Of a stretch of DNA of 32,408 bases, positions 41 to 19,490 are shown in pieces. Both the position numbers and the translations under genes were made by a program. Positions within the stretch are counted from its first letter, which is position 1; the number at the start of each line of letters is the position of its first letter. The notes under the pieces are model-generated. The model was not told the origin of the DNA. It worked only from the letters and a program-made list of their open reading frames with translations, and searched no databases. Source of the stretch: Flavobacteriales bacterium (GTDB lineage Bacteria; Bacteroidota; Bacteroidia; Flavobacteriales_D; Crocinitomicaceae); contig CANGHX010000013.1 in the NCBI GenBank assembly GCA_947453715.1, forward strand, positions 1 through 32,408. The letters run 5' to 3'.

Positions 41-3000
41 TTATTTAGAAATAACAATTCTTTCAATTCTATTGAAATTGTTGTTATAAACTTTCACAAC
101 ATAAATACCTGCAGCAAAACCTTCAACATTTAAAGTTGATTGTTCGTTAGCATTAACTGTTGATTGTAAAAGAGCTGTTTGACCAGTAACATCCAATATT
201 TCTACTGTTGCATTTTCTGGTGAAACTATGTTTAAAATATTCATTGTTGGATTTGGGAAAATATTTACCAACATAGAAGATAAAGAAGATAAGCTATTTG
301 TTAATCCATCTAATTCAACTTGAGCAACTTTACCATTTAATAAACCGAAAGTTGAGTTGATATCTTCAGCAGTAACATTACCATTAACTTTATCAAATCT
401 TACAGATAAAACAACTTTATTTAAATCAAAGTTTGTCATATCAGTTGCTGTATATCTTAATGTTCTATCATTTTCATTGAAGTGAGCAAAACCATCGATT
501 TCATTGTTATTAGAAACAATTGAATTAAAAGTTAATTTATCCTCATTGAATTTGAAAGCGAAATCTAATGCTCTAACATCAGTTGTTGACATAATTGAAA
601 CTGGGATGTCAATTGAAGTTCCATTATCTATAGCGTTTGTAATATCTAAAATAACTTTACCATTGTTTTCCATACTTTTCAATACACCATCAGCATTGTA
701 TGCAGCATAACTTCCATCAACATCACCTAACATAATTGATTTATAAGTTTCAGCAGTAATAACTGGACAATCAGAATAACTAGAAACTGGAACACTTAAA
801 ACAAATGGAGTTACTGGAACTTTCGCTTTAGAGAAACCAACGTTATCATTTAAAGGGAACGTAGAAGAAATATGGTAAGCAGCATTATTTTGAATTCTAG
901 CAGAATCAACAAAGATCCAATCTTTAGAAGCTTCACCATTTGATACTCCAGCATTTGAATAGTTCCAAGCTTGTTGGAATTCAGGGATATTTAAAGTAGC
1001 TCTTTGTTTAATTTGAGAAATATCACCTGCACTTACAACACCATCCAAGTTAACATCTAAAGCAATTACTTGATAAATTGAAGGAGTAAATGTTGCAACG
1101 TTTGTAATTAAATCTTTACCTAATGCGATATCTGCAGCATTAATAATACCTTGAACAACAGCTAAGTTATTGATATCTCTTTTGATATTGATTCCTAATC
1201 CATTTGTCAAAGAATAATTAAATTCACCTAATAAAGATGGATTAACAACGATATTATTAGCATTTAAAACACCTGTAGATACATCAGCACCTTGAACATT
1301 AGTGATTAAATATGTGTTAGGAGCACCTGCATCATATTTAATTGCACTGTTATCTGACCAGAATTTTAATGATCCAACAAAGTTTTCATTTCTATAAGTA
1401 ATCGCTTTACCATTTGAAACAGATTTAGTAGCAACACCAGTAATATAACTTTCTTGTAAGAAAGAAGCTGAAACTACAGCTGTATCAATTTGATGGAAGT
1501 TTGCTGTTTTAGTAAACTCAACACAGAAGATTTTACCTGTTCCATTGAATTCAGTTGTACTTGGTGCAGACCCTTTAAAGAAAACAGAAATATTCATAAT
1601 TCCATTAACTGCATCAATTGTATTAGCTGTTTCAACTAAAGAAGAGTTAATCAAATCATTGAATAATGAAATATTTCCTGTTGGAGTAACTTTCGTTTTA
1701 TCATATTGTAAAGTTACATCGTAACCTTTTACGTTATCAACTGGTGTAGTAACAGCAACTGATAAAGGAATACAGAAAGTTGGTACGTTACAAATTTGAG
1801 AAACAGTTCCTAATTCATAAGGTAAAGCATTTGGATCTGCAATGTTTAAAGTAAGAATAGAAGAATTTGTAATCGCTCCTTTGTTATCTGTTGATCTAAC
1901 TTTAATGTTAGCAACTCCTGGAGTACTTGTCCATGCAAATGAATATGGAGAAGTAGCATCTGTACCAACAACAACATTATTTACTAAAAACTCAACTTGA
2001 GCAACAGTTCCATCAGCATCAGTTGCTGTTGCTGTGATAGTTACAATATTTGGTGCAATATAAGAAGCTGTAGATAAAGGTGAAGTAATTGCTGAAGTTG
2101 GAGGGTTATTATTAACTACAGTTAAAGTAGAATTTGATGTAGTAGTTGTTAAACCTAAGTTATCTGTAGCAATAGCTTTCACTAAATGCGTACCAACTAC
2201 TGCAGAATATGTAGTAGCATATGGAGCAGTAGCATCAGTTCCAACTAAAACATTGTCAACAAAGAATTGAACTTGAGCAACTGAACCATCAACATCAGAA
2301 GCAGTAGCTGAAAATGAAACTACATCAGCATCAATTGCAGCAGAAGGAGCTGTAAGTGAAATTGAAGGAGCTTGATTATTAGCAACACTTATTGCAATAC
2401 TGCTAGAAGTTGTAATATCTCCAGAGTTATCAGTTGCTTTTGCTAAAATTGTATGAGAACCAACTGTAGCAACATATGTATTAGAATATGGAGAAGTAGC
2501 ATCAACACCTACAGAAACACCATCAACAAAAAACTCAACTTGAGAAATTGTTCCATCTGAATCAGTAGCATTAGCTGTAATTGAAGTTGAAGTACCAGTG
2601 ATAATATTTGCACCATTTGTAGGAGCAGTAATACTAACTACTGGAGGAATATTAGGAACTAAGTTTAAAGATGCGTTTGTTAACTCACCACCTGTTGGAG
2701 CACTAGAAACGTAATTTTCAGCAACACCTGTAGCGATATTTACTAATTGCACATTTAAATGGTAACTAAATACACCATCCGTTGTAAATTGACCAATCAA
2801 CACCATATTAGAAGCTGTTGGTCCAACTACACCACCTAAAGCAGCAATTGCACCATTTGTACTTACAAAACTGTTTCCTGGAGTTTGATCAAATACACCC
2901 AATTCAGTTGAAATTCCTAAAACGTTAGGAACGATAACTGAACCAGTAATCATACCATCCGCTGCAGATGTACTTGTAGTACTTCCAATGTTAATAGGTA

Positions 3001-3484
3001 AACCAAAAAGACCACCTGGGTTATTTTGTAATACTGATTGAGCATTACCTGGAGATCCATCTGTATCTTCCGATTTCAAAACACCAACTTTACCAGTAGC
3101 AATTCCACCAGTTGTAAACCAAGAATCAATTAACGCTGTATTTTTTCTAACGTTAGTTGTACTGATTGCAGATGGATTTGTAGTTGATCCTGAATTAGGG
3201 TCATTATAAAAGTTTGTTGTTGTTGTTAATTGTAAAGGGTGAGCAGCTGTACCATAAATTTGAGAAAATTTATAACCTGCAGCCATATTAACATAAACTC
3301 TGTAAGTTACAGAACCAGCATTCAAAGGTGAAGCTGAACCATTATTCAATGCATTTGCAGCATCTGCAGCATTAGATTGGTAGAATTTTTCAACTACTAT
3401 ACCTTCTAATCCTTGCGCTTGAGCGAAATTACCAATGAAGGCAAGTCCTAATCCAAGTATGATTTTTTTAGTATTTTTTTTCAT
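41..3484 (-). CDS. Secreted multidomain protein: N-terminal 'GLExIxVEKYY' family domain, three bacterial Ig-like repeats, cohesin-like / dockerin-like / cohesin-like region, T9SS type A C-terminal sorting domain
   Basis: 1147-aa ORF; signal peptide MKKNTKKIILGLGLAFIGNFAQAQ; three repeats of the type PPVVSITAPTNG...ATDSDGTISQVEFFVDGVSVGVDATSPYS; EF-hand-like DVNLDGVVSAGDI; CTD ...VNIFPNPTMNILNI...GIYVVKVYNNNFNRIERIVISK. Confidence 0.9.
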   Translation of the reverse strand: MKKNTKKIILGLGLAFIGNFAQAQGLEGIVVEKFYQSNAADAANALNNGSASPLNAGSVTYRVYVNMAAGYKFSQIYGTAAHPLQLTTTTNFYNDPNSGSTTNPSAISTTNVRKNTALIDSWFTTGGIATGKVGVLKSEDTDGSPGNAQSVLQNNPGGLFGLPINIGSTTSTSAADGMITGSVIVPNVLGISTELGVFDQTPGNSFVSTNGAIAALGGVVGPTASNMVLIGQFTTDGVFSYHLNVQLVNIATGVAENYVSSAPTGGELTNASLNLVPNIPPVVSITAPTNGANIITGTSTSITANATDSDGTISQVEFFVDGVSVGVDATSPYSNTYVATVGSHTILAKATDNSGDITTSSSIAISVANNQAPSISLTAPSAAIDADVVSFSATASDVDGSVAQVQFFVDNVLVGTDATAPYATTYSAVVGTHLVKAIATDNLGLTTTTSNSTLTVVNNNPPTSAITSPLSTASYIAPNIVTITATATDADGTVAQVEFLVNNVVVGTDATSPYSFAWTSTPGVANIKVRSTDNKGAITNSSILTLNIADPNALPYELGTVSQICNVPTFCIPLSVAVTTPVDNVKGYDVTLQYDKTKVTPTGNISLFNDLINSSLVETANTIDAVNGIMNISVFFKGSAPSTTEFNGTGKIFCVEFTKTANFHQIDTAVVSASFLQESYITGVATKSVSNGKAITYRNENFVGSLKFWSDNSAIKYDAGAPNTYLITNVQGADVSTGVLNANNIVVNPSLLGEFNYSLTNGLGINIKRDINNLAVVQGIINAADIALGKDLITNVATFTPSIYQVIALDVNLDGVVSAGDISQIKQRATLNIPEFQQAWNYSNAGVSNGEASKDWIFVDSARIQNNAAYHISSTFPLNDNVGFSKAKVPVTPFVLSVPVSSYSDCPVITAETYKSIMLGDVDGSYAAYNADGVLKSMENNGKVILDITNAIDNGTSIDIPVSIMSTTDVRALDFAFKFNEDKLTFNSIVSNNNEIDGFAHFNENDRTLRYTATDMTNFDLNKVVLSVRFDKVNGNVTAEDINSTFGLLNGKVAQVELDGLTNSLSSLSSMLVNIFPNPTMNILNIVSPENATVEILDVTGQTALLQSTVNANEQSTLNVEGFAAGIYVVKVYNNNFNRIERIVISK

Positions 3485-3665: not shown

Positions 3666-5384
3666 TTAATTACAAGAAGTACCAAAAGCTGGTGCGAAAA
3701 TCAAGAAATCAGAAACATCTGTAATTCCGTCACCATTGATATCTGTAGGACAAGAAACTAATCCTTTAGTAGCACCTAAGATTTGAGAATATGACCAATC
3801 AGATAACCAGTTGTCACCAGTTGAAGCAAATGCACCTCTGTAGTTTGCAGCTCTAAAGAAACCATCAGCAGGAGCAACTGGACAACCAGCAACTGATAAA
3901 GATGGATTAGGAATTGGATCATTTTTAGCAGCAAAAACGTTTGTATTGTTATTTACTGAAAAAGAATAATCAAATCCTGGTAATGTATTCCCTGTAACGA
4001 TTGTATTCAAATCTGTTGTAGTAAATTGTGTATTATCAGCAGCAACAACATTCGCAACTGCAGAACCAACTGTTAATGGGTTTGTACATCCAACAAATGT
4101 ATTACATTTCACTTTTAAAATTTGAGTTCCATTTCCATTTGCAGTTGACCAGTTATGGTAAGCTTCTGATGTTCCGGGTCTTGTACCTAAAGATTTAACT
4201 AAGTTTAATCCATTTTTGAAGTTAGCGAAAACTGAATTATAGATTTCACCTCCTGTCAATTCTTTTGCATTAATTGCAGCAATTGAAGAGTTATCAGAAG
4301 TTAATGTTGTTTTTTCATTTCCTAAAATAGTAACATTGTAAATTACAGGAATAGATTTTGGATTATTATTAGATTTTCCATCATCAGAATCTGCTTCAAA
4401 TCCATTATCAGAATCAGCACTTGCAGTGTTATCTGTTTTCATACCAAATAAAAATTGAGCTTTTCCAGACCAACCTAAATCCCAATCAAACATATCATCA
4501 TTTCCGAATAAACCAGTAACATATTTAACGTTTACTGTACCACCAAAAAACTCAATATTATCATCAGCACTAGAAACAATTTCTAAATGTTCAATAGTAG
4601 TACCTCTACCAACTGAACCTAAAGACAATCCATTTAACTCAGCACCAACAGCTAAAATAGCTCCAGCATAACGAATTGAAACATACTTTAATGTTCCTGA
4701 ATTATCATTATCATTAAAAGTTTCACCAGCTGTTAAGTTAGCACCATATTGATCCTGAGTACCAGTACTAGCAAAACCTTCCATCGTTCCTAAACCATCA
4801 GCTATTGCTAATTTACCTGAACCACCTGCAACGAAAGGACCATTAGCAGCTAAAGTAAGGTTGTTAGTTGCTTTACCTAACATAACTACTCCACCCCATT
4901 GACCTTTATTAGCAATTGGAAATGAACCATCTAAAGGGTCTGCCTCTGCAGTAAAAACGATTTGGCAATCTGCAGATCCTTCAGCCATAATTTTTCCACC
5001 TCTTTCAATTACTAATGCATTTGCATTTTCTGGTGCAGCATCATATCTTCCTTTGATAACAGTTCCAGGATTAATTGTTAATACTTGACCTGAAGGAATG
5101 TATATTTTTTTATCTAAAATGTATGTTTTATCACATGATAATGTAGCACCTTGAGTTAACTCACCACCTGGAACAGTTGTATGAGTAACACCACTTTGTA
5201 CATAAGTTGTAGGAGTTAATGCCGTAAAACCAGGCAAAGAAGACAATAATACTGTAGGTCTTGAAGCAACTGGAGGACAACCGCAAGCTGAACCTAAACC
5301 TGTTTGCCCAAAACTTGGAGCAACCGCAGCAACTGCAAAAGATACAGAAGCAACTAACTTAGAAAAGTGTTTTTTTGTTTTCAT
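3666..5384 (-). CDS. Secreted protein, probable right-handed beta-helix/repeat fold, with C-terminal dockerin-like EF-hand tail
   Basis: 572-aa ORF with signal peptide; IYIPSGQVLTINPGTVIKGRYD...LVIERGGKIMAEGSADCQIVFTAEAD and GQWGGVVMLGKA are typical of Bacteroidota beta-helix-like surface proteins; C-terminus CPTDINGDGITDVSDFLIFAPAFGTSCN. Confidence 0.85.
   Translation of the reverse strand: MKTKKHFSKLVASVSFAVAAVAPSFGQTGLGSACGCPPVASRPTVLLSSLPGFTALTPTTYVQSGVTHTTVPGGELTQGATLSCDKTYILDKKIYIPSGQVLTINPGTVIKGRYDAAPENANALVIERGGKIMAEGSADCQIVFTAEADPLDGSFPIANKGQWGGVVMLGKATNNLTLAANGPFVAGGSGKLAIADGLGTMEGFASTGTQDQYGANLTAGETFNDNDNSGTLKYVSIRYAGAILAVGAELNGLSLGSVGRGTTIEHLEIVSSADDNIEFFGGTVNVKYVTGLFGNDDMFDWDLGWSGKAQFLFGMKTDNTASADSDNGFEADSDDGKSNNNPKSIPVIYNVTILGNEKTTLTSDNSSIAAINAKELTGGEIYNSVFANFKNGLNLVKSLGTRPGTSEAYHNWSTANGNGTQILKVKCNTFVGCTNPLTVGSAVANVVAADNTQFTTTDLNTIVTGNTLPGFDYSFSVNNNTNVFAAKNDPIPNPSLSVAGCPVAPADGFFRAANYRGAFASTGDNWLSDWSYSQILGATKGLVSCPTDINGDGITDVSDFLIFAPAFGTSCN
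3669..3752 (-). other. Single C-terminal EF-hand/dockerin-like motif
   Basis: Encodes CPTDINGDGITDVSDFLIFAPAFGTSCN-stop, near-identical to the first motif of the 2194-aa protein. Confidence 0.75.
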
Positions 5385-5703
5385 TTTTTCTTATTAATAA
5401 TTAATTAAACGTATTAAGTAAAATCACTTAATTTTTCGATACAAATATCGCTCAGAGAAAAAGGAAAAAAGGAAAATTTATATTATGAAAGAAATATGTT
5501 TAATGACAAAAAATATTTTCCAAATATTATGAGCTCCTAAAGATTTGGTCACATTAACCTTAAATGGTCATATTAAATTAATACGGGTTGTTTTTATAAT
5601 TTTATATCGAACAAAGTGGCAATTTAGTCGAACTAAACCGTTTAATATTCAAAAAGTATATTAACCGAATATTAATATCTGTTTTTTAGATATTCTGTAA
5701 AAC

Positions 5704-5746
5704 AAAAAATCTTTGCAAGAAAAGAATTTTTCTCACAAAGATTTTT
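5704..5746 (-). terminator. Candidate terminator downstream of the 2194-aa protein gene
   Basis: 19-nt arms AAAAATCTTTGCAAGAAAA (5705-5723) and TTTTCTCACAAAGATTTTT (5728-5746), 17/19 complementary, followed on the minus strand by a T-rich tail. Confidence 0.7.
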
Positions 5747-5764
5747 GTTGTTTGTAGTTAAAAA

Positions 5765-8700
5765 TTAATTACAAGAGCACACCCTATTAAATTTAGGTGC
5801 AAATAATAAAAAGTCATTAATATCAATAGAACCATCGTGGTTTATATCTTCACGACAATTTGAACATGTAAAGCCAAATGCAGGTGCGAAAATTAAAAAA
5901 TCGTTTATATCAGTCACACCATCATCAGTTAAGTCTGTAGCTTCGCAATTGGACAGCAAAATAGTTGAAGAATTATAAATACATCCAAATAAATCTGTTT
6001 GAGTAACAGAATAATTACCAAAATTTGAAACTACTATAGATTTTGAAGTTGATCCATTTGTCCATATAAAACTAGATGGATTTGGTATTGTTGGAGCTGT
6101 TAATGTTGTCGATGATCCTCCACAAAATGATGAATTTACTGCATTTACAGCACTGCTAACTGGCATACATAAATCAATTCCAGTTAATATGTCAGATCTA
6201 AATTTTCTTAAATTTAAATTTCCATAATCTTTTGCTTCTAAACCATCATTATAAATTACATCTGAACCACCGTCTGAAATTACTTGAAGTTGAGACATAG
6301 ATGTTATTCCATTAGCTTTAACTTCCATTACACCTTCCATATTTAATTTTCCATTTCCTTGTGATGAAACCAATATCGGTGAATCAGCAGAATTTCCAGT
6401 CCATTTATAAATTGAACTTAAAGCTAAATTAGGACCCGCATCACCTGCAACAATAATATAAGTACCATTTTCTAAGCGAATTATATCACGTATACCTTTT
6501 CCACCTAAATTTAATTCAATTGGAGCACCGAATGTTGGATTTCCAACTTGAGAACCATTGTTAAACCATGTTTCGAAATTTAAGATTGGGGCAATTACTG
6601 CTTTTGTTCTGTTTACTGTTGGTACTAAAGGAGCTCTTAAACCAATCCAAAGTGTTGTACTATCTGGACCAAACACCATTCCTTCTGCAGCAAAACCAGA
6701 AACTGATTTAGAATCCACTCCAGCAGCAGCACTTGCAGTAAAATTATATCCATGAGCATCACCCCATGTTAATAATGCTGAACGTATTGCTGTATATCCA
6801 TTTACCGAAATAGTAGTTGCTGCACCTGTTCCTGTAACTGTTGTAGCAAACAAACGATCTCTATTTGGTTTATTATCAAAAGGATCTTTTCCATTACTCA
6901 TTGAACCTAACCAATAATATCGATTTGCTATTTTGTAACTTTTAGCACTTGCTTCTGCATCAACCTCAGGTTTAGCTTGGTCTGGTAAATTCAAATACGA
7001 AGCATAATTGAATGAAGCAACTGGTAAACCTGAATTATGTCGTGAATAAACGTTAATTACATCAACTTCATCATCGGCGGTCATATAATAATCATTATCA
7101 AGTGAAATTGCATCGGATGCATCAGACATTCCAGTATGCCATTGCGTGTTATTTAAAACAATTTTCGGAATCGAATCTGAAGCTGCATAATTAATCACAT
7201 ACGATGCATTATTTAACCCGTCACTCACTTGAATCGTTATGGTAGAATATCCAACAGCAATAGGAGAAATTTTTAGATTTCTAATTGATAATGAACCTGT
7301 TAATAGCATATTTCCATTTGGAACTACTGTTATATTACTACTTGCAACAGTAACGATCAAACTTGAAGCAGCTGTTTCTGCATCGTTGATAATAAAATCG
7401 ATTCCTAACGTTGCAATTGGATCCGTTACGTCACCTATAGAACCACTTATTGTATAAGGACTTACTGGTGAACTAGCAACACCTCCATCAATATAATTAG
7501 TAGTTGAAGCAACATTTATAAAAATAGTCGGCGCACTATTATCGTTATCAGAAATTACAACATTTTGAGAAGTAGTTGTTCCCAATAATAATCCAGGTGA
7601 TGGATTAGAAATTGTAAGGACTGCAATTTCATTTCCTTCCATTAATACATCATCAACAACAGTAAAAGTAACTGAACCTGATGAAGCACCTGAAGGAATT
7701 ATAATTGTTGAATTAGAAAGTGTGAAATCTCCATTCGTAATATTTGTTCCCGTAACAGCTAATGAAACTATTTCAGTTGAAGATAACGTTGAAGAAGAAG
7801 TTGCCGTAACAGTTATTGCTGTTGTACCTGCCTCTGAACCAGCATTTGAGCTAACTGATAAATTAACTGTTGGTGTTCCAGCACTAACTGGTGAAAAAGC
7901 AATTCCTTTATAGTATACACCAGCAACTGCAGGAACTATTGTAAATGCATTTGAACTTGGTCCCGAATCAGCAATTTTAATTACTCTATTTCCAGTTGTT
8001 TCAAAAGTAGTTGCGTAGATGATTGGATTTGCTCCAGAATAATCAACTAATAAACCATAAGCTCCAATATTAGCTGCTCCTGTACTTAACGTATATGCTA
8101 ACGTCCAAGTTCCAGCTGATTTCGTCCATTTTTGAATTCCTCCTGAAGCGGTGTTCAAATTCACTGCAATATAACAAACATCTAAAGATGAATTAAAAGA
8201 GAAATCTTCAGGTATAATAGAACCTGTATTAATAATTTGCACCGGTGTAGCCGTTCCTGAAGTCTGTAATCCTGAACCAATTGAGAAAATACCTAACTGA
8301 GTCGCTGAATTTGAAGGACCTGCTTTTTGAGTTGAATAATAAATTTGATTATTAAAAATTCTTGTAGCGTATGCTTTTGAAGGAATAGCTCCAGAACCTA
8401 AAACAGTTGGTGTACCTGGCCCAACATAATTTATACCATCCACATTTGCTGTAGAAGCTCCACCTACCCAATAGTTTGTTCCATCTGAAACAGCTGAACG
8501 TATATCATTTAAGTTAAACATTGTAGAACTTGAATACATTTGTTGGTATAATCCTGAAGGTGTTACTTGTCCAATTACTCTTGGTACAGTGTTAGAAGCA
8601 GTTGCAGTAACATCAGCAAAAGTTGATGAAGTACCGTAACCAGCAACTACTAAATATTTACCATCTGTAGAATTCGTTAAAAATCCTTCTGAACCACCAT

Positions 8701-11700
8701 ATACTCCCGCTGTTTGAATTGGAGTAGTTCCTGTTGAAGGTAAATTAACTGTTACACCAGGCACACCTGTAACTGTATACTCTTTCAAAGTAATTGAATT
8801 TGAAGATTTACTTACACTACCAGTTGTTTGTAGTACTACGATTCTACCAGGAGTAAAGTCAGTTGAAATAAGCGTAATATTAATAGATCTAGGAATACTA
8901 TTACCATAACTATTGATAGCATAAACACTTAAATTTCCAGCTGTTGCATTTGATGCAAAGTTAATCGTTATACTATTTCCTGAACCAATAATAGTAGCCC
9001 CTGTTCCACTATAACTCCAAGAATAAGTTACTGAAGGGTCATTTGGAACTGTATAAGCTACACCTGATTGACCATAAATTACAGTTGAAGAACTAACTGT
9101 AAAATCAGCAGGTTGAGAAGGTAAATGTGTTACTGTTAAAGCTAGAGACGCAATTGAATCACATCCTGCAGCATTCGTCGTAGTATATGTATAGGTTCCT
9201 GAATTTGTATAATTTGTTCCATTCCAAGAATATGAATCATTTACTGTTACCGTATTTGTAGATTTAGTAGTTAAACAAATATTAAAGTTTGCTCTAACTG
9301 TTGTTGGATTGAAATCTTCGTTTTTAGAAAATAAATTACCAACTCCTATTCCCATGTCGGCATCTCTTCCAAGACCCATCACGTTAACTTTTCTATCTGT
9401 ATATAAGTTTACTAATGTATATCCTAAGTATTGTTTCCCTGCTCCCATGAACAATGTCTCAACTCTTGAACCTCCATTACCTGCAACTACTTGCCATGTT
9501 TTTCCAGCATGTGGGTGAATAGTATCCCAACAGTGTTCGTGTGCTGCAAACATTGCTTCACAGTTATTGTTCTCTAAATATTTCCACAAACTATCTCTTT
9601 GTGCTACGTAAGCTGCACTTCCAGAATTTTCTAATCCATCTCCAGGTTTCATTGATGAAGAGTAAGCTGGTTTGTGACCAAAAGCAAATATATGACGTGC
9701 ATTGTTTGCTCTTGCGGTTTGAACATCGTTCGCAACCCAATGGAAAGGTACTTTACTATCTTGTCCTGTTGGATCTGTATTTAATACGATGAAGTGATCT
9801 TGTCCATAATTGAATGAATAAGTCAGTTTGCTTTGGTCTGTAGCTAAATTATCTGCTCCGCCAACGCCTGGACCATTGCTTCCATTAATATATGGTGCCA
9901 TTACTCGTGTGTAAATACGTTCAGCTTCAACATACGATGTTTTTCCTGCTGCCTTATTTTGAGTTTCGTGGTTACCAGGGATTGCTACCAATGTGATGTT
10001 CATTGATGACAATGGGTGAGATTGATAAATTGCTTTCCAGCTTGTTAATTGTTTTACCAATTCTGCTGTATCAGCTACTCCCTTGTATCCCATTACGATA
10101 TCTCCTGTTAAGAAAAGGTATTTTGGCAATGGACTGATATGTGAAATCTCTGTGAATAAACGTTTCAATTGGTAAACGTTCGCTGTACTTTTTCCTGTTG
10201 CAACATCTAATCCTGTTGTTGCTGATGTATCTGTGTAATCTACTCTGTTACATCCAACTGTTACAAATGAGTAATCTAAGTTCGTTTGTGGAATTGTTAT
10301 TGAATTGTTTAAGTTAATCGCTACTGTTCTTGCAGTACTTGATCCACAAGCAACATTATTTGCAGTTACACTTAATGTTCCACTTGTTGCAATTGAAGAG
10401 AAATCAATTGTTACACTATTTCCTGAACCATTGATGGTTTCTCCTGTTCCGCTATACGTCCAGTTGTATGTTACACCTGATACATTTGGAACTGTATAAA
10501 CAACTCCCATTTCTCCTTTGTAAACAAATGTGTTTTTAACTGTGAAATCTGCTGGTTGTTGAGGTAAACTTACAACCATTGTTAAAGAATTTGATGTAGC
10601 AATTGAAGGACTTACACAAGCATCGGAAGATATTAATATACAAGTAACTACATCGCTATTTAGTAACGAATTAGTTGAAAAAACTGCATTATCTGTGCTT
10701 ACAATATTACCATTTAATTTCCATTGGTAGCTAGCAGTTCCGCCGTTTGTTGGAGTAGCTGTAAAAGTTACAGTTGCACCTGGACAAACTGAAGTTCCTA
10801 AATCTGAAGCAATACTCACTGACGGAACAACTGTTGGATTAACCGTAACCGTTGTCGCACTTGATGTTGCTGAGCAATTACTTGCATTTGTAACAGTAAC
10901 TGAAAAAGACCCGGATGTTGAAACAGTAATAGCTTGAGTTGTTTCACCAGTTGACCATAAATAACTAGAACCAGAAGATGCTGTTAAAGTGATTGAATTA
11001 CCTGAACAAAAAGTTGTCGCTCCACTTGGAGTTATAGTTGCAGTTGGTAATGCATTCACTGTTCCTGTAACAGAAGAAGTAGAAGTACCACAACCATTAG
11101 AAACAGTAATTGAATAAGAACCTGTTGCAGCGGTAGTTGCTGATGAAATACTAGGATTTTGAGATGAAGATGTGAAACCATTTGGTCCAGTCCAAGAATG
11201 AGTTAATGGTGATGTACCAGTTGTAGATAAATTTAAATTTAATGTATTATCAGCACAAACAGAACTACTTGTAACAGAAGTTATAGCAGGAGCAACACAA
11301 GGAGCAAAATCTACTCCGTGAAACCAAACATTTGTAGTCGCTGCAACTAAAGTAGAAGCTGAAGAACCTGAACCAGTATCTGTAATTTTGATGATTCTAT
11401 TTCCAACAGTTGCTTCAGAAGTAGTAGCATAAATTACAGGATTTGCTCCTGAATAATCTACTACCAAACCATAAGCTCCGATATTTGAAACACCAGTTCC
11501 TAAAGTATATTGTAGTGTCCAAGTTGCACCAGATTTTGTCCATTTTTGAATTCCTCCAGCTGCGGTGTTTAAATTAACTGCAACATAACAAATTGTACCA
11601 GCAGTATTAAAAGAAAAATCTGCTGGAACAGTAGTACCCATATCAATTACTTGTGTCAAAGTTGGTGAACCACTAATTGGTAAACCAGTTCCAACTGAAA

Positions 11701-12349
11701 ATATTCCTAAATGAGAAGTTGTATTTGAAGGTCCTGCTTTTTGGGTAGAGCAATACATTTGACCGCCAAAGATTCTTAAACCATACGCTTTAATTGGTGT
11801 TGCACCACCTCCTAAAACAGCTGCAGTTGAAGGACCAAAATAGTTTATACCATCAACATTTGCAACAGAAGCACCTGAAGTCCAATAATTTGTTCCATCA
11901 GAAACACCACCTCTTATATCATTTGCACTATAATAAGTAGTACTCGAATACACTTTTGAAAAATTACCACTCGCATCTATTTTATAGATAGCTCTAGGAA
12001 CAGTAGCTGAATTTGAAGCAGTAATATCAGTAGAAGAATAGTCAGCTGATGTAGAGTATCCTCCTAAAATTAAATTTGCTCCATCAGAAGATTGAGTTAA
12101 GAATCCTTCTGAACCACCTAAAGTAGCTGCCATTTGAATAGTGTTAATTCCTGTTATAGGCAATGTAACTGAAACACCTGAAACACCTGAAGGTGTATAT
12201 TCTTTTAACGTAACTGCTGAACCAAACTTTGTTGTGGCTCCAGTAGTTTGAACTGCAACTATTCTACCTGGAGTAAATGAACTTTGCCCGAAAAGGAGAA
12301 AAGTGCAAAAAATCGAGGAAATTGCTAATAGTAATGTTTTTGATTTCAT
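5765..12349 (-). CDS. Giant secreted mosaic protein: two copies of a ~330-aa propeller-like domain, Ig/PKD-like segments, calcineurin-like metallophosphoesterase, Calx-beta, DUF3616-like region, tandem C-terminal EF-hand-like tail
   Basis: 2194-aa ORF with signal peptide; metallophosphoesterase motifs TGDIVMG, PGNHETQ, FGHKPAYS, AAHEHCW; Calx-beta VSLAVTGTNITNGDFTLSNSTIIIPSGASSGSVTFTVVDDVLMEGNE; C-terminal DLTDDGVTDINDFLIFAPAFG and DINHDGSIDINDFLLFAPKFN. Confidence 0.9.
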   Translation of the reverse strand: MKSKTLLLAISSIFCTFLLFGQSSFTPGRIVAVQTTGATTKFGSAVTLKEYTPSGVSGVSVTLPITGINTIQMAATLGGSEGFLTQSSDGANLILGGYSTSADYSSTDITASNSATVPRAIYKIDASGNFSKVYSSTTYYSANDIRGGVSDGTNYWTSGASVANVDGINYFGPSTAAVLGGGATPIKAYGLRIFGGQMYCSTQKAGPSNTTSHLGIFSVGTGLPISGSPTLTQVIDMGTTVPADFSFNTAGTICYVAVNLNTAAGGIQKWTKSGATWTLQYTLGTGVSNIGAYGLVVDYSGANPVIYATTSEATVGNRIIKITDTGSGSSASTLVAATTNVWFHGVDFAPCVAPAITSVTSSSVCADNTLNLNLSTTGTSPLTHSWTGPNGFTSSSQNPSISSATTAATGSYSITVSNGCGTSTSSVTGTVNALPTATITPSGATTFCSGNSITLTASSGSSYLWSTGETTQAITVSTSGSFSVTVTNASNCSATSSATTVTVNPTVVPSVSIASDLGTSVCPGATVTFTATPTNGGTASYQWKLNGNIVSTDNAVFSTNSLLNSDVVTCILISSDACVSPSIATSNSLTMVVSLPQQPADFTVKNTFVYKGEMGVVYTVPNVSGVTYNWTYSGTGETINGSGNSVTIDFSSIATSGTLSVTANNVACGSSTARTVAINLNNSITIPQTNLDYSFVTVGCNRVDYTDTSATTGLDVATGKSTANVYQLKRLFTEISHISPLPKYLFLTGDIVMGYKGVADTAELVKQLTSWKAIYQSHPLSSMNITLVAIPGNHETQNKAAGKTSYVEAERIYTRVMAPYINGSNGPGVGGADNLATDQSKLTYSFNYGQDHFIVLNTDPTGQDSKVPFHWVANDVQTARANNARHIFAFGHKPAYSSSMKPGDGLENSGSAAYVAQRDSLWKYLENNNCEAMFAAHEHCWDTIHPHAGKTWQVVAGNGGSRVETLFMGAGKQYLGYTLVNLYTDRKVNVMGLGRDADMGIGVGNLFSKNEDFNPTTVRANFNICLTTKSTNTVTVNDSYSWNGTNYTNSGTYTYTTTNAAGCDSIASLALTVTHLPSQPADFTVSSSTVIYGQSGVAYTVPNDPSVTYSWSYSGTGATIIGSGNSITINFASNATAGNLSVYAINSYGNSIPRSINITLISTDFTPGRIVVLQTTGSVSKSSNSITLKEYTVTGVPGVTVNLPSTGTTPIQTAGVYGGSEGFLTNSTDGKYLVVAGYGTSSTFADVTATASNTVPRVIGQVTPSGLYQQMYSSSTMFNLNDIRSAVSDGTNYWVGGASTANVDGINYVGPGTPTVLGSGAIPSKAYATRIFNNQIYYSTQKAGPSNSATQLGIFSIGSGLQTSGTATPVQIINTGSIIPEDFSFNSSLDVCYIAVNLNTASGGIQKWTKSAGTWTLAYTLSTGAANIGAYGLLVDYSGANPIIYATTFETTGNRVIKIADSGPSSNAFTIVPAVAGVYYKGIAFSPVSAGTPTVNLSVSSNAGSEAGTTAITVTATSSSTLSSTEIVSLAVTGTNITNGDFTLSNSTIIIPSGASSGSVTFTVVDDVLMEGNEIAVLTISNPSPGLLLGTTTSQNVVISDNDNSAPTIFINVASTTNYIDGGVASSPVSPYTISGSIGDVTDPIATLGIDFIINDAETAASSLIVTVASSNITVVPNGNMLLTGSLSIRNLKISPIAVGYSTITIQVSDGLNNASYVINYAASDSIPKIVLNNTQWHTGMSDASDAISLDNDYYMTADDEVDVINVYSRHNSGLPVASFNYASYLNLPDQAKPEVDAEASAKSYKIANRYYWLGSMSNGKDPFDNKPNRDRLFATTVTGTGAATTISVNGYTAIRSALLTWGDAHGYNFTASAAAGVDSKSVSGFAAEGMVFGPDSTTLWIGLRAPLVPTVNRTKAVIAPILNFETWFNNGSQVGNPTFGAPIELNLGGKGIRDIIRLENGTYIIVAGDAGPNLALSSIYKWTGNSADSPILVSSQGNGKLNMEGVMEVKANGITSMSQLQVISDGGSDVIYNDGLEAKDYGNLNLRKFRSDILTGIDLCMPVSSAVNAVNSSFCGGSSTTLTAPTIPNPSSFIWTNGSTSKSIVVSNFGNYSVTQTDLFGCIYNSSTILLSNCEATDLTDDGVTDINDFLIFAPAFGFTCSNCREDINHDGSIDINDFLLFAPKFNRVCSCN
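5768..5947 (-). other. Tandem C-terminal EF-hand/dockerin-like motifs
   Basis: Encodes CEATDLTDDGVTDINDFLIFAPAFGFTCSNCREDINHDGSIDINDFLLFAPKFNRVCSCN-stop. Confidence 0.75.
7880..8865 (-). repeat. Propeller-like domain copy B in the 2194-aa protein (approximate limits)
   Basis: DFTPGRIVVLQTTG...GGSEGFLTNSTDG...VSDGTNYWVGGASTANVDGINYVGP...YYSTQKAGPSN...GGIQKWTKSAGTWTLAYTLSTG, clear paralogue of copy A. Confidence 0.85.
9340..10285 (-). other. Calcineurin-like metallophosphoesterase domain within the 2194-aa protein (approximate limits)
   Basis: Motifs II to V recognisable (GDIVMG, GNHE, GHKP, AHEH); motif I is divergent (FVTVGCNRVDY). Confidence 0.75.
11300..12285 (-). repeat. Propeller-like domain copy A in the 2194-aa protein (approximate limits)
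   Basis: SFTPGRIVAVQTTG...GGSEGFLTQSSDG...VSDGTNYWTSGASVANVDGINYFGP...YCSTQKAGPSN...GGIQKWTKSGATWTLQYTLGTG, shared with copy B. Confidence 0.85.
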
Positions 12350-12522: not shown

Positions 12523-13197
12523 TTACAATGTGTAAAACAAACCACAATTACTGCCAATAGAATAAAAATATTTTTTTACTGGTGCATCCATGACAGTTGT
12601 GATTGATTGTCTGTAAATTAATTCAAATTTAAAACTCCATTTAGGAGAAAAATTTGTTTTTAAACCTGCTCCAATTATAGAAGTAAAATTTAATTTAGAA
12701 AATTCTGAATTTCCTATTATTAACTCTCTTGATGACGAATTTTCCTTTTGCATTAATATTTTACTTGAAAGAAACAGATTTGAAGAAATTCCTGCAGAAA
12801 TAAAAATTTTTGTATTCTTATTTATAATATTATAATTCACTTTTAAAGGAATATCTAAATAGTGAATGTGATCTACATATTTTTCAATTGTAGGAATAAT
12901 TTTAGATCTTAGTTGTTCACCTTTATCCGAATACAATATTCCAGTTGAAAGTGAAATTTTTTGAGTAAATTGATAATCTAAATTTATTCCAGTCGTAAAC
13001 CCAAATTTAGCAACTTCCAATGTATCGAATTGATCTTTCATCCATTGATTATCAGAATTTGTATTCGTAATTCTATAACAAAAATCAGGTGAATAAGTTA
13101 AACCTATTGCTATCGACTTTGGTTTAATTGTATCAGAAGTTTGAGCTAATATAAAGATTGGAAATAAGAAGATTATAAATGAAATTATTCTTTTCAT
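12523..13197 (-). CDS. Outer membrane beta-barrel protein (PorT/OMP_b-brl_2-like)
   Basis: 224 aa, signal peptide, alternating beta-strand pattern, YSPDFCYRI...GFTTGINLDYQFTQKISLSTGILYSDKG...LDIPLKVNYN. Confidence 0.75.
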   Translation of the reverse strand: MKRIISFIIFLFPIFILAQTSDTIKPKSIAIGLTYSPDFCYRITNTNSDNQWMKDQFDTLEVAKFGFTTGINLDYQFTQKISLSTGILYSDKGEQLRSKIIPTIEKYVDHIHYLDIPLKVNYNIINKNTKIFISAGISSNLFLSSKILMQKENSSSRELIIGNSEFSKLNFTSIIGAGLKTNFSPKWSFKFELIYRQSITTVMDAPVKKYFYSIGSNCGLFYTL

Positions 13198-13215
13198 GTG
13201 AAATTTTTTAAAATT

Positions 13216-13932
13216 TTAGTCTTTAACGCAACGGATACTAAATCCATAATTTTTGTAGGTAAATTGTCGATATACTCCTTTTTGCTGACTATCTAAATAT
13301 CGATACCAAGCTTGATTGTTATGCTCAGTCGAAGTCCAGAAAAATGCAGTATTTGTCTGATTGTTTAATGATCCATTAAAAACTCTACAGCCAGAAGGTA
13401 TAGCATCAAAACCAACAGTACTTGAATAAATTTCAATCGGATTAACCCATTCAATAGACGTTTTCATCAACATTAAACCGGTATTAGATCCTCTCCAAGC
13501 CAAACCATCAGCTTCTTCTTGTTTTGTTCCAAGTGACTTTTCTAATGTCTTCCACTCTTCATCAGAAGGAATGTGCCAACCTTGTGGAGCTATTTTTTTT
13601 GAATTGTTTACAGAAAACCAATTATATAATAATCCAAAACGAGCATCAGCTGAACAAAATGAGCCTACTTGAGTATTTTCCCATATGGAATCATTTCCTG
13701 AAATTGAAATTTCATTTATTGCTGTTCCATCACTATATTTATGCACTTTTAAATTTTCAGCCATCCACCATTGATCACCAATTTTAACAGTCTTGTATAC
13801 ATTCCCATCAATGTCTTGCATCGTACTGGTTTCATTTGGAACAGTCTCTTTTTTTGTTTCTTTTTTACAAGAAATAAAAAGAAAAACAATAATTCCAAAA
13901 ATATAATTTAACCTCATCATTTTGAATTTCAT
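13216..13932 (-). CDS. FISUMP (Fibrobacter succinogenes major paralogous) domain lipoprotein
   Basis: Lipobox-like LFISCKK; DIDGNVYKTVKIGDQWWMAENLKVHKYSDG...LYNWFSV...APQGWHIPSDEEWKTLE...GSCR...WTSTEHNNQAWYRYLD...GFSIRCVKD. Confidence 0.9.
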   Translation of the reverse strand: MKFKMMRLNYIFGIIVFLFISCKKETKKETVPNETSTMQDIDGNVYKTVKIGDQWWMAENLKVHKYSDGTAINEISISGNDSIWENTQVGSFCSADARFGLLYNWFSVNNSKKIAPQGWHIPSDEEWKTLEKSLGTKQEEADGLAWRGSNTGLMLMKTSIEWVNPIEIYSSTVGFDAIPSGCRVFNGSLNNQTNTAFFWTSTEHNNQAWYRYLDSQQKGVYRQFTYKNYGFSIRCVKD

Positions 13933-15263
13933 TAATTTTTCATAAATAATTTTGTAGCAGTTTGCCCTCCTGCATTTACTAAAACAGTATATAACCCATT
14001 ATCAATTGCATTTAAATCAATTTCTTCATTTGAAATAAAGTTTGCATTACCAAATGATTTTTCAACAAGTACAATCCCAAAAGAGTTAATTATTTTGTAA
14101 CTTAATTCCGTTGATTCACCAGCAATAATATTTAAGATTAATTTTTCGCTTGCTGGATTAGGATGAATATCGAATTCAAAAGAGTTTCCTCTTTGAGACG
14201 GACAAACTACTGAAATATCACGATTTGCACATGCACCTGGATAACAACATAATGATTCAATCATAAAATTAACTTTTGAATCATAATTACAAGCCATTGA
14301 GTCAGAACAACCAAATACTATGGGTGTTTGACAAGCACCTGGTAGGCTGCAAACAAATGATTTATCATATTCTAAGTAATTTCCATCTGTACATCCACAT
14401 GAGTATGGATAACTCAAAAAAGAACTAACTTCTTCATCAGATTGAAGTAAAGTATCTTTAGAAACATATTTTAATGTTTGTAAAACACCATCTACAAGTG
14501 CTTCAATCTCTAGATTGATTTCAAATGAAAGTTGACCTTTAGTTGTTAATTGGGCAATTAACACTTGATTACTATCAGTAAGCACACCTGAAACTCCAGA
14601 ATTTTGAAGTGCAAAACTAGTACTTGAAAAACTCATTTTAGGTACTAATGAACCAAATATTGTACTGTCATTTCCTGAAACAAAATCTTTTATTCCATTA
14701 TCAATCCAAGTATCTGGAATGTTTACCATCGTATCCATTCCATCAGAAATAGTAAGCGGAATGCCTAATAACGCGTCATTATTCGTTAACATTCCATCCG
14801 AAATCATCGCACTTCCTCCGTCATTATTTACTCCTCCAATGAAAGAACCATCAATATCTTGTGATTTTAATAAACCAAAATAAGTTTTGTTTCCTTGCTT
14901 TTTAGTTGTTTGCCCCAAAGTCAACCATGTATCCAATGCTACAGTATTTTCACCATATCTAGCTTTAATAAAGTCTTTTGCAAAGGTTTGACCTTCAATA
15001 TTATTGTAAAAATAATCAGTACTTGAAATTGAAAAGGGATGCTCATTATTTCCATAAATTTTTTTCAATTTACTTCCAGGTAACATATCTACGTAAATTC
15101 TGTAAGTAGTCGAACCAGCTTCAACTTTTCCACCAATTGTATCTGTTGAATCAGCGTAATTTGAAATATAATAAGTTTCAACAATAATCTTTTCAAGTTG
15201 TGAAAAAGCAGATGAAGAAATAAAAAATAATACGAATATGTAAAAACAATTTCTCATTTTCAA
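13932..15263 (-). CDS. Secreted 'GLExIxVEKYY' family protein with Cys-rich insert and T9SS type A sorting domain
   Basis: 443 aa; LEKIIVETYYISNYADS...AGSTTYRIYVDMLPGSKLKKIYGNNEHP...; FGCSDSMACNYDSKVNF; CTD FDIHPNPASEKLIL...GLYTVLVNAGGQTATKLFMKN; stop codon overlaps the next start by 1 nt. Confidence 0.88.
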   Translation of the reverse strand: MKMRNCFYIFVLFFISSSAFSQLEKIIVETYYISNYADSTDTIGGKVEAGSTTYRIYVDMLPGSKLKKIYGNNEHPFSISSTDYFYNNIEGQTFAKDFIKARYGENTVALDTWLTLGQTTKKQGNKTYFGLLKSQDIDGSFIGGVNNDGGSAMISDGMLTNNDALLGIPLTISDGMDTMVNIPDTWIDNGIKDFVSGNDSTIFGSLVPKMSFSSTSFALQNSGVSGVLTDSNQVLIAQLTTKGQLSFEINLEIEALVDGVLQTLKYVSKDTLLQSDEEVSSFLSYPYSCGCTDGNYLEYDKSFVCSLPGACQTPIVFGCSDSMACNYDSKVNFMIESLCCYPGACANRDISVVCPSQRGNSFEFDIHPNPASEKLILNIIAGESTELSYKIINSFGIVLVEKSFGNANFISNEEIDLNAIDNGLYTVLVNAGGQTATKLFMKN

Positions 15264-15278
15264 AATGAATTTAATTTG

Positions 15279-18200
15279 TTATAATTTATAGGAAATACTC
15301 AAGTTATAATTTGTTCCATATCTGAAACTATCATAATCTACCCATCCATTTGGTAATTTATAGGCTCTTCTAACTTTAGCATTTAATAAATCTCTTATTG
15401 TTAGACTTGCACTGAAATGTTTACCTAGTGTCTTCGTCACCTTAAAATCAATAGTGTTTCTAGGCATTTCATAAACATCTGGTCGACCTTTTACAATTCC
15501 TGTAATAACTAACCTAGGACCTTGAACATTATAACTTATAGTTGCCGTTAATCCTAAACTATCTGCTTTATACATTAACAAAGCATTTATTATGTAGGGA
15601 GCTTGACCAAGCATAGAACGATTAACTGTATCAATTGGAGTAGAAATTTTCTCACCATTTACATATTGAATATCTTTTCGGATAAAAACAGAATTTGATT
15701 TTACTAAAGTCACATTCGTTCGAAATTCAAAGTATTTTGAAATTGCCTTATTAATTTCAAACTCTATACCTTTTACATTAGATTTATCAATATTCTGCCA
15801 ACTAATAGCACCACTTTCAAAACCCATTTCAATATGATTCTTAAAATCTTTATAAAATAAACTTACAGAAATATTATCACCATTTTTTAAGTAAGATTCT
15901 GCACGAATATCAAAGTTTTTAATATGTACCGTTTTCAAATCGGAATTACCATGAATTAAAGTTCTATACTCATTATCATAAACTGCAGCATCATTTAGTT
16001 CTCTAATACTTGGTCGTGCAACAGTTTGGCTGTAATTAAATCTTAAATTCGTTTTTGCAAATTGAATTTTAGTTATTTTATAAATGATATTCGCACTAGG
16101 TAAAAAGTTTACTTCATTAATATTAGCAGCATTCACACTATTTGGCAGTCCGAAACCATTTCCTCTTCTCGGATCATTTTTTGCATAACCTAAACGATAA
16201 TAATCATTAATATCAGTAAAAATTTTAGCTTGTTCAACTCTCAATCCACCCGAAAAACGGATTGAAGATTTTAATTCATAATCAACCATTGCAAATGCAG
16301 CTTTAATGATGCTATAACCAAAAGAGTGATTGTAAGCAGCTTTATTTTCATCGTAATAATAGTCTACTTTTCCGTTCGACATAATAAAACGATTCGCATT
16401 TAAAAACTCATCAATATTTTCGCTTGTAGGACTTGGATGAGAACCATTACCTTCAACAATTGAAAAATCTTGAATATCTGATTTACGATCTGTACGTTGA
16501 TAAGCTCCACCAAATTTCACTTTACGTAATAATTTTTCTGTTGCATTTTTTAATGGTAATTCAGCTGATAATCTTGAATCAAAAATATTTTCTGATAAAT
16601 ATCTATAAAAACGATGAACTCCATCTCCCACTGTAGGTCCAAATTGGTAAACACTTTTCACATTATTATCTAAAGTATATCCGTACTGAATGACTTTAAA
16701 ATCTGGAGCTATACTATTACCTTGTGTAAAAGATGAATTAAAATCTATTTTCATTTTAGGCCCAGCTAAATAGTGTTCAGATTTAAATTGATATATTTTT
16801 TGTTTTCGTTGTTCGTAAAAGAGTAAGTTCTGTGTTCTACCCTCTTGACTCCCAATAGAATTAGTTGGAATTGAAGTTGCAAAATTACCAATATCATTTG
16901 TTCCACTGAAATTAGGCATAAACATCAATGACACTTTATTTTTATCATTGAGTTTGTAAGCTAAATTCATTAACCCACTCCAACTATTTGTTTCTCTACT
17001 TACTTTCGCAGAATCTCTAACATCAAATGGGAAATTCAATTGTTCAGCACCCACTCTTTGAGAAACCCCATTTGGATCATATCGAACAGCAGTAGCATAT
17101 CTGAACCCAACTATATATCCTAATGGTTTTCCAAACAACGTTACTTGATCACCAACACTAAAGCTTTGTGTATTATTTAAAGGCGCTTTTCTTTTCACTA
17201 TATTCCAATTGTGAGCAAAACCATTATTATAATCTGAACCATCAGGATTAATTCTACTTTCTGCTTGCGCCTTATAAGTATTATTATATTGATTTTGTGC
17301 ATTTTGAATAGCTGCTGGATCATTTATTAAAGCCCTTGGCAATAAACCCAATTGGACTAATCCTAATTTATTGTAGGTAATACCTTCTGAAGTTCCATCA
17401 ATCCAGCCATCAACTCCCAAACTATTAAAATAAGAACCCAATCCTAAAGCAACCATTTCTTGATAGGTAGATGGATTTAATGTTGGAGAACTAATCGGCT
17501 CATCTTTTCTATTTCTTAATCCATTATCATAACCTAACCAATCAGTTGAACTTCTTTGAGTACTAACTATATCTTTGAAAGAAGTTTGAGCATTATATCC
17601 AAATTGTGATTCAACGTTCACTTGTAATTTGTCTGGATAATCTTTTGTTTCAACTGAAATGTATGCTCCTGTCCAATCACCTGGCAAATCAGGACTAGCT
17701 GTTTTAGTTATGATAATATTGTCAACTAAACTTGCAGGAAAAATATCTAATTTAATATTATTTGTTAGTGGATCGAGTGTCGGAATACGAGAACCATTCA
17801 AGGTTGTTTTAACATATCTATCACCAATACCACGTACAGTAATAAAACCACCGTTTGTTGAAACACCTGAAACTCTCGCAACAGCAGCACCAATTGTTGC
17901 ATCACCAGTCTTTTTCATTGTTTCAGCTGAAATGTAATCTAAAGTTGTAGCTGAATTAATTTTAATTCGTTCCATATAGCCATCGTTCGAACGAATTTGT
18001 TTAGCTACAATTTTCACTTCCTCTAGCTCGGTTTTTTTAGGGGAAATCGTGAAATTTTTGATCAAAACTTCATTATCTTTCAATTGGACAACCTCTAGTA
18101 TTGTATCATAACCAATATAGGCAATAACCAACGTTAAATAATTTGAATTTTTTATCGAAATATTATAATTTCCATCAAAATCACTTAATGTTCCAGCTGT

Positions 18201-18341
18201 TTTTTCATTTTGAGGATAAATTTGAACATCAAAAACAGGCTGCCCTTTTTCATCTGTAATTTTTCCCCGAACGATACCTTGACTCCATGAAAAAACCGTT
18301 GTCATCGAAAATATGACAAAAATTAGTAATCTATTTTTCAT
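15279..18341 (-). CDS. TonB-dependent receptor with carboxypeptidase-regulatory-like N-terminal domain
   Basis: 1020 aa; GIVRGKITDEKGQPVFDVQIYPQ...GTLSDFDGNYNISI; plug ATIGAAVARVSGVSTNGGFITVRGIGDRYVKTTLNGSRIPTLDP; C-terminal beta-barrel ending SFRYGTNYNLSISYKL. Confidence 0.93.
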   Translation of the reverse strand: MKNRLLIFVIFSMTTVFSWSQGIVRGKITDEKGQPVFDVQIYPQNEKTAGTLSDFDGNYNISIKNSNYLTLVIAYIGYDTILEVVQLKDNEVLIKNFTISPKKTELEEVKIVAKQIRSNDGYMERIKINSATTLDYISAETMKKTGDATIGAAVARVSGVSTNGGFITVRGIGDRYVKTTLNGSRIPTLDPLTNNIKLDIFPASLVDNIIITKTASPDLPGDWTGAYISVETKDYPDKLQVNVESQFGYNAQTSFKDIVSTQRSSTDWLGYDNGLRNRKDEPISSPTLNPSTYQEMVALGLGSYFNSLGVDGWIDGTSEGITYNKLGLVQLGLLPRALINDPAAIQNAQNQYNNTYKAQAESRINPDGSDYNNGFAHNWNIVKRKAPLNNTQSFSVGDQVTLFGKPLGYIVGFRYATAVRYDPNGVSQRVGAEQLNFPFDVRDSAKVSRETNSWSGLMNLAYKLNDKNKVSLMFMPNFSGTNDIGNFATSIPTNSIGSQEGRTQNLLFYEQRKQKIYQFKSEHYLAGPKMKIDFNSSFTQGNSIAPDFKVIQYGYTLDNNVKSVYQFGPTVGDGVHRFYRYLSENIFDSRLSAELPLKNATEKLLRKVKFGGAYQRTDRKSDIQDFSIVEGNGSHPSPTSENIDEFLNANRFIMSNGKVDYYYDENKAAYNHSFGYSIIKAAFAMVDYELKSSIRFSGGLRVEQAKIFTDINDYYRLGYAKNDPRRGNGFGLPNSVNAANINEVNFLPSANIIYKITKIQFAKTNLRFNYSQTVARPSIRELNDAAVYDNEYRTLIHGNSDLKTVHIKNFDIRAESYLKNGDNISVSLFYKDFKNHIEMGFESGAISWQNIDKSNVKGIEFEINKAISKYFEFRTNVTLVKSNSVFIRKDIQYVNGEKISTPIDTVNRSMLGQAPYIINALLMYKADSLGLTATISYNVQGPRLVITGIVKGRPDVYEMPRNTIDFKVTKTLGKHFSASLTIRDLLNAKVRRAYKLPNGWVDYDSFRYGTNYNLSISYKL

Positions 18342-18366
18342 TTGAAACTTGTTTTCCTTGAAAGAA

Positions 18367-19485
18367 TTAATGTTTGATTATTTTGAAAGTATTTACTTTG
18401 TCGTTAGCAGTAACGTTAACGAAATAAATTCCATCAGGTAAATTACTTGTTTCAACTTTTTTAGAATAATTTGCTTTCATATCATTCAAATTTTCAGAAA
18501 CTAAAGTTTTTCCCATTACATCTTGAATAGAGTAATTATTATTTTGAGAATTTAATTCAGCATTATTAATATAAATTGTAAATGCATCTTTTACTGGATT
18601 TGGGTAAATCGAAACGAATGTTTTTTGAACTTCTAATGCATTTACACTAGCATTTCCTCCAGCACTTGTTGTATCTTGAACAAAAGACGAATAAATTAAA
18701 GTTGAATCCGTCAATTGACCGTTCCCAGGGTTTAAAGCTGTATAAATTTCGCTACCCCCTGATACTGGAGTTCCAATTTGAAGATTTAATTCAAAACTAA
18801 AAATTCCATCTGTTGTAAATTGCCCTAATAACACCATATTACTAGCTGTTACTCCAGTTGCTCCGCCTAAAGCAGCAATAGCTCCATTATTAATAGCAAA
18901 TGTATCACCAGGTGTTTGATCGAAAATATCTAATTCTGAAGTTATTCCTAAAACATTAGGAGCTATCGGAGTTCCAGGCATCATTCCGTCCTGAGCGTTT
19001 GTACCATTAATTGGTATACCCATTTCAATTGTACTATTTGCCAATAATGATTGAAGATTTCCAATTGAACCATCTGTATCTTCTGATTTTAAAACTCCCA
19101 TTTTTCCAGAAGCAACTCCTCCAACTGAAAACCATGAATCAATTAATGTTGTGTTTTTCTTTGTATTATTAACCGTAGTACCATGGGAAAAAGTCGATCC
19201 AAAATTTGGATCATTGTAAAAATCAGTTGTTGTATTAACTGTTAAGGTATGAGTTGCATCACCAAATAAGGTAAGGAATTTATATCCAGGTAGTAAATCC
19301 GCATAAACTCTGTATGTAACAGAACCAACTCTCAAAGGAGAAACTGCTGAATTATCTGCAGCATTCGTTGAATCAGCAAGGTCAGAAACATAGTATTTTT
19401 CAACTACAATTCTTTCTAAACCATTTTGAGCGATTAAAGTTGTTCCAGAAAGGATCAATCCAAGTAATAAAGTAATTTTTTTCAT
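18367..19485 (-). CDS. Secreted 'GLExIxVEKYY' family protein with T9SS type A sorting domain
   Basis: 372 aa; GLERIVVEKYYVSDLADS...VGSVTYRVYADLLPGYKFLTLFGDATHTL...KNTTLIDSWFSVGG...GVLKSEDTDGS; CTD VSIYPNPVKDAFTI...DGIYFVNVTANDKVNTFKIIKH. Confidence 0.9.
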   Translation of the reverse strand: MKKITLLLGLILSGTTLIAQNGLERIVVEKYYVSDLADSTNAADNSAVSPLRVGSVTYRVYADLLPGYKFLTLFGDATHTLTVNTTTDFYNDPNFGSTFSHGTTVNNTKKNTTLIDSWFSVGGVASGKMGVLKSEDTDGSIGNLQSLLANSTIEMGIPINGTNAQDGMMPGTPIAPNVLGITSELDIFDQTPGDTFAINNGAIAALGGATGVTASNMVLLGQFTTDGIFSFELNLQIGTPVSGGSEIYTALNPGNGQLTDSTLIYSSFVQDTTSAGGNASVNALEVQKTFVSIYPNPVKDAFTIYINNAELNSQNNNYSIQDVMGKTLVSENLNDMKANYSKKVETSNLPDGIYFVNVTANDKVNTFKIIKH

Positions 19486-19490
19486 TTTTA

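Follow-up and report, generated by a model that had tools for sequence, protein, structure and literature searches.

The window, the whole 32,408-nucleotide stretch analyzed here, carries on its reverse strand the genes for two exported proteins of 572 and 2194 residues, and these lie between the gene for a 1147-aa scaffoldin-like protein and a block of conserved upstream genes (Table 1). Both open reading frames and their C-termini are exactly as quoted in a first-pass annotation made from the DNA letters, which had called the two proteins giant, a term that does not fit the 572-aa protein. That annotation was right that both have signal peptides, which by eye are of the Sec type and sit at the N-terminus, and that a T9SS sorting domain (CTD) of type A or B is missing, as neither protein matches TIGR04183, TIGR04131, or NF033708 (types A, B, and C). 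It was also right that the remainder of the two proteins is unrelated, with a best blastp E value of 0.62 once the tails are removed. A Foldseek search with the core of the 572-aa protein returned weak β-helix matches.

Table 1. Features of the window, with the upstream genes listed in order
Feature	Position	Strand	Evidence or remark
1147-aa scaffoldin-like neighbor: ~260-aa N-terminal domain, Big_7 x3, Coh1, Dockerin_1-like, Coh2, T9SS type-A CTD	41..3484	(-)	
Type-A sorting domain of 1147-aa protein	50..262	(-)	TIGR04183 E 1.4e-11, 44.2 bits, cut-off 23
Coh2, cohesin-family domain (aa 943-1065)	290..658	(-)	PF00963 E 3.5e-4, 21.2 bits, cut-off 24.1
Internal Dockerin_1-like segment (aa 779-828)	1001..1150	(-)	PF00404 21.5 bits, cut-off 22.9
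Coh1, cohesin-fold domain (aa 554-698)	1391..1825	(-)	AlphaFold pLDDT ~90-95; Foldseek
572-aa exported passenger: signal peptide, β-helix core, one C-terminal tail	3666..5384	(-)	
Single dockerin-like tail of 572-aa protein, CPTDINGDGITDVSDFLIFAPAFGTSCN	3669..3752	(-)	Profile A1, E 2.6e-18
2194-aa exported protein: signal peptide, PKD and Ig-like repeats, calcineurin-like metallophosphoesterase (aa 725-940), tandem C-terminal tail	5765..12349	(-)	
Tandem tail repeat 2, 2194-aa protein, DINHDGSIDINDFLLFAPKFNRVCSCN	5768..5857	(-)	Profile A1 search
Tandem tail repeat 1, 2194-aa protein, DLTDDGVTDINDFLIFAPAFGFTC	5858..5944	(-)	Profile A1 search
Conserved upstream genes	12523..20333	(-)	Same order beside 572-aa homologue in many other genomes
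Upstream gene: 224-aa protein, outer-membrane barrel	within 12523..20333	(-)	By inspection
Upstream gene: 238-aa protein, FISUMP-type lipoprotein	within 12523..20333	(-)	By inspection
Upstream gene: 443-aa protein, CTD-A	within 12523..20333	(-)	
Upstream gene: 1020-aa TonB-type receptor	within 12523..20333	(-)	By inspection
Upstream gene: 372-aa protein, CTD-A	within 12523..20333	(-)	
Upstream gene: 280-aa protein	within 12523..20333	(-)	

The tail is single in the 572-aa protein (3669-3752) and tandem in the 2194-aa protein (5768-5944), as had been described. In its single form it is 28 residues long and consists of one loop and one helix with two flanking cysteines; the 572-aa protein and its homologues have one such loop-helix repeat, and the 2194-aa protein has two. 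The loop follows the 12-residue dockerin-type calcium pattern D-x-[ND]-x-D-G-x-x-[ND]-x-x-D, in agreement with the dockerin-like reading first proposed, and N or D is found at loop position 3 in 69 and at position 9 in 70 of 72 tails. In the tandem, the first loop has T at position 3, and the positions of the second loop are dockerin-like. From this pattern, the tail is probably calcium-binding. Tail-against-tail blastp comparisons gave E values of 4e-10 and 5e-8, but pairwise identity is 54-61%, so the tails, first described as near-identical, deserve that term for the DFLIFAPAFG core only. Profile A1, built from the three window tails and searched across the whole genome, recovered these three at E 1e-19 to 3e-18 and no other convincing copy, giving a total of three copies in two proteins. 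The genome encodes the T9SS sortase PorU, and a census of its sorting domains counted about 104 type-A CTDs. With the tail confined to two proteins compared with ~104 CTDs, a general, genome-wide sorting tag is rejected for this genome.

The tail keeps strictly to the C-terminus. Every one of the 39 homologues of the 572-aa protein whose C-terminus could be read ends in it (42 were fetched; L061 and L072, at contig ends, and L075, with an early stop, were left out). All 64 loci that could be read, a few of them redundant, have the stop codon 4-7 residues after the final aromatic of the final repeat, be it single or tandem. The complete genome G065, of family f9, has the tail at the C-terminus of 54 of the 55 proteins read. 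A mostly internal placement, which would have spoken against the first-pass reading, is not what these sets show.

Homologues of the 572-aa protein reveal what else can occupy this position. A search of 197 Bacteroidia genomes with the tail-less core detected it in 149; despite this presence, the family (3666-5384 in the window) is without a Pfam or NCBIfam model. Among 65 complete core homologues that were read, the tail closes 18 and a type-A CTD 31; another 15 lack any C-terminal module but show, by inspection, a lipobox, and the remaining one (L171) is apparently frameshifted. None of 33 tail-bearers matched a CTD model, and a paralogue in the genome that contains the window (G000:C103) combines the core with CTD-A. 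In a tree of 76 cores, on which the states tail, CTD, and lipobox were compared, the tail-bearers form one clade (98 SH-aLRT) spanning eight family codes, and CTD and lipobox interchange. Attachment state changes seven times on this tree compared with 33.5 times in shuffles. A limit of this evidence is that the 572-aa passenger family acquired the tail a single time. As read from these homologues, the tail is in the slot held by a T9SS anchor or a lipid anchor in relatives of the 572-aa protein, and this exchange supports a role of the slot in surface attachment. The attachment half of the original suggestion of an anchoring or sorting tag is therefore strengthened, and the tail probably serves in surface attachment as a dockerin-like module, in half or full form.

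Among known dockerins, the tandem form falls in or close to the GC-type family NF041540, judged by profile scores. This family is understood to sit at the extreme C-terminus, as the tails do, and like the window tandem it has a C-terminal pair of calcium-loop repeats with a Cys between them. The window tandem scores 21.1-27.2 bits, under the cut-off of 29, whereas f9 tandems score above it; the 572-aa protein has no match to NF041540, its single tail being half of the domain. With type I dockerin, PF00404, the tail shares the calcium-loop spacing (positions 1, 3, 5, 9, and 12) followed by a helix, but it differs in the single repeat of the 572-aa protein, the conserved aromatic FAPAFG helix, and the flanking Cys. 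Neither window protein has a PF00404 match above the Pfam curated cut-off, and weak matches are seen in 7 of 18 tail ends (best E 0.0014). A tail with a single loop amounts to half a classical dockerin, which is a point against the interpretation that we favor below.

The 1147-aa neighbor had been put forward as the site of a cohesin-like partner. Its Coh2 domain is the sole PF00963 match in this genome and falls below the curated cut-off; 21 of 34 Coh2 homologues match PF00963 (best 2e-8), and genes homologous to the 1147-aa gene in relatives score up to 32.8 bits. For Coh1, 4 of 20 homologues match. A comparison of folds was needed because sequence searches against the PDB gave no match for Coh1 and weak matches for Coh2. 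AlphaFold modeled the Coh1-Doc-Coh2 stretch with high confidence in Coh1 and moderate confidence in Coh2, and the best Foldseek matches of this model are cohesins, with TM scores of 0.7-0.78 to single modules, the matches not being apportioned between the two domains. The fold is shared with PF00963 cohesins, known from clostridial scaffoldins and Archaeoglobus (5nrk, 3ul4, and 2xdh), whereas the window copies lie below the Pfam cut-off and within a protein that has Big_7 repeats and a T9SS CTD-A. On these models, the proposal is largely right in that the neighbor holds two cohesin-fold domains together with a T9SS CTD. The top Foldseek matches were to a Coh-X-Doc scaffoldin piece (3kcp and 4fl4), and the Dockerin_1-like segment of the neighbor sits between both cohesin-fold domains. 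The ~260-aa N-terminal domain of the neighbor, which neither Pfam nor NCBIfam matches, is found again in the 443-, 372-, and 280-aa proteins around the TonB-type receptor (41-3484, 13932-15263, 18367-19485, and 19491-20333) and is the part of the neighbor that is retained even where the cohesin is lost.

Gene order also brings tail and cohesin together. The next gene starts a median of ~64 bases past the stop of the tail protein (34 loci), and in relatives further SP-cohesin-CTD and SP-cohesin-PKD-CTD genes follow that of the neighbor; three distant families have the cohesin gene ~1.5 kb past the tail. The tail is present in 18 of 79 relatives, in 11 of them together with cohesin profile A3 and in 7 alone, with cohesin alone in 3 and neither in 58; neither these counts nor the gene linkage are independent of phylogeny. 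No Coh1 match was found in G253. More broadly, 35 of 296 genomes drawn from the class have the tail, mostly in one copy and within the 572-aa homologue, but two f9-family genomes carry 76 and 59 copies. In the f9 genomes with 59-76 tails, no match to PF00963, A3, or A4 was found, and G055, G065, and G077, the f9 genomes richest in tails, have no cohesin match. In the f31 clade, the neighbor beside the tail combines the 260-aa domain with PKD_6 and CTD-A and lacks a cohesin match, and L044 and L048 likewise keep the tail next to a neighbor without a cohesin match. Given these exceptions, a cohesin partner for the tail is plausible in this lineage from the sequence data, but cohesin as its universal partner is unsupported.

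On balance, and with little more than even confidence, we favor a model in which the tail is a dockerin-type attachment module whose most likely partners are cohesin-fold domains, namely one or both of those in the 1147-aa neighbor and those of further cohesin-CTD proteins. In this model, the 572-aa protein carries a half-dockerin (one loop, one helix, and two Cys) and the 2194-aa protein a complete dockerin with two loops, each taking over the role of the T9SS type-A CTD or lipid anchor found in homologous proteins. The tail would bind the cohesin fold of the 1147-aa neighbor or, in relatives, that of the cohesin-CTD proteins encoded just beyond. Because these partners would be exported and anchored by the T9SS via their own CTD, the tailed proteins would be displayed on the surface non-covalently. 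A tail in an attachment slot adjoining a gene for a T9SS-anchored cohesin-fold protein thus probably hooks proteins onto the cell surface.

The main rival to cohesin pairing is another T9SS-displayed receptor, such as the ~260-aa N-terminal domain or an outer-membrane barrel, with the tail still an attachment module and the cohesin incidental. Where cohesin is missing (the f31 clade and L044/L048), the next gene still encodes a CTD-A protein with the 260-aa domain, and the tail-rich f9 genomes do without a recognizable cohesin. However, divergent cohesins may escape the profiles, most of this lineage has a cohesin next to the tail, and the dockerin calcium-loop pattern has the cohesin fold as its textbook receptor; we consider a different receptor unlikely. 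A further step, which we regard as improbable, is piggy-back export, in which tailed proteins without an outer-membrane export signal of their own would reach their fold in the periplasm, associate there with the cohesin of a CTD partner, and cross the type IX translocon as a complex. If it does occur, the T9SS could deliver non-covalently assembled surface complexes.

Similarly improbable is that the tail serves the fold alone, as a calcium-binding cap or for self-association, and plays no part in anchoring. Short segments of the EF-hand type are widespread, and the tail has low confidence and is poorly defined in the AlphaFold model of the 572-aa protein, but it is common to unrelated proteins, is always C-terminal, and is complementary to CTD and lipobox anchors. 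Also improbable is a non-canonical T9SS secretion signal read directly by the secretion machinery: the tail does take exactly the position of the CTD in paralogues, in a genome with PorU and ~104 CTD proteins, but it is a loop-helix of 28 aa, against 72 positions in the type A models and other, longer families for types B and C (PMC10202324), the tandem form in related bacteria matches the GC-type dockerin model, and lipoprotein homologues show that the slot can hold something other than a secretion signal.

The dockerin-cohesin pairing that we favor has precedents; we rate the window system as a variant of T9SS-anchored cohesin/dockerin systems that are already known. In "Ca. Stygibacter" (Cloacimonadota), a cohesin scaffoldin with a T9SS-type CTD and proteins with C-terminal dockerins were inferred from genomes (PMC8542988). 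The window has the same two elements, but the dockerins of "Ca. Stygibacter" are on hydrolytic enzymes and its multi-cohesin scaffoldin is 3755 aa long, whereas here, in Bacteroidia, a half-dockerin on a β-helix protein lies beside a two-cohesin protein. The planctosome of freshwater Planctomycetes is likewise a non-cellulosomal cohesin/dockerin complex proposed for surface display, although with a lamin-tail protein anchor, peptidase cargo, and no T9SS described (PMC6461901). A 2023 review of T9SS effectors names CTD types A, B, and C, and the words "dockerin" and "cohesin" are absent from its text (PMC10202324); our literature search found no paper on half-dockerin tails in Bacteroidota.

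Proteins with a signal peptide but without a CTD are usually omitted from predicted T9SS surface proteomes. Were the tail to provide an additional, non-covalent way of displaying proteins, some Flavobacteriales relatives (59-76 tail copies) would each have dozens of proteins moved to the predicted cell surface, and T9SS bacteria would add a half-dockerin form to cohesin/dockerin display. Because one passenger family naturally exchanges tail, CTD, and lipobox, the question lends itself to direct testing. Tails do not displace CTDs wholesale in the tail-rich genomes, as the f9 genomes also hold at least 142-150 CTD-A. The tail-rich f9 loci of G065, a genome in which cohesin went undetected, are L272-L282, and several of nine tail proteins scanned there are of extracellular type, including subtilases, an α-amylase with starch-binding domains, and an LTD/ExeM-like protein.
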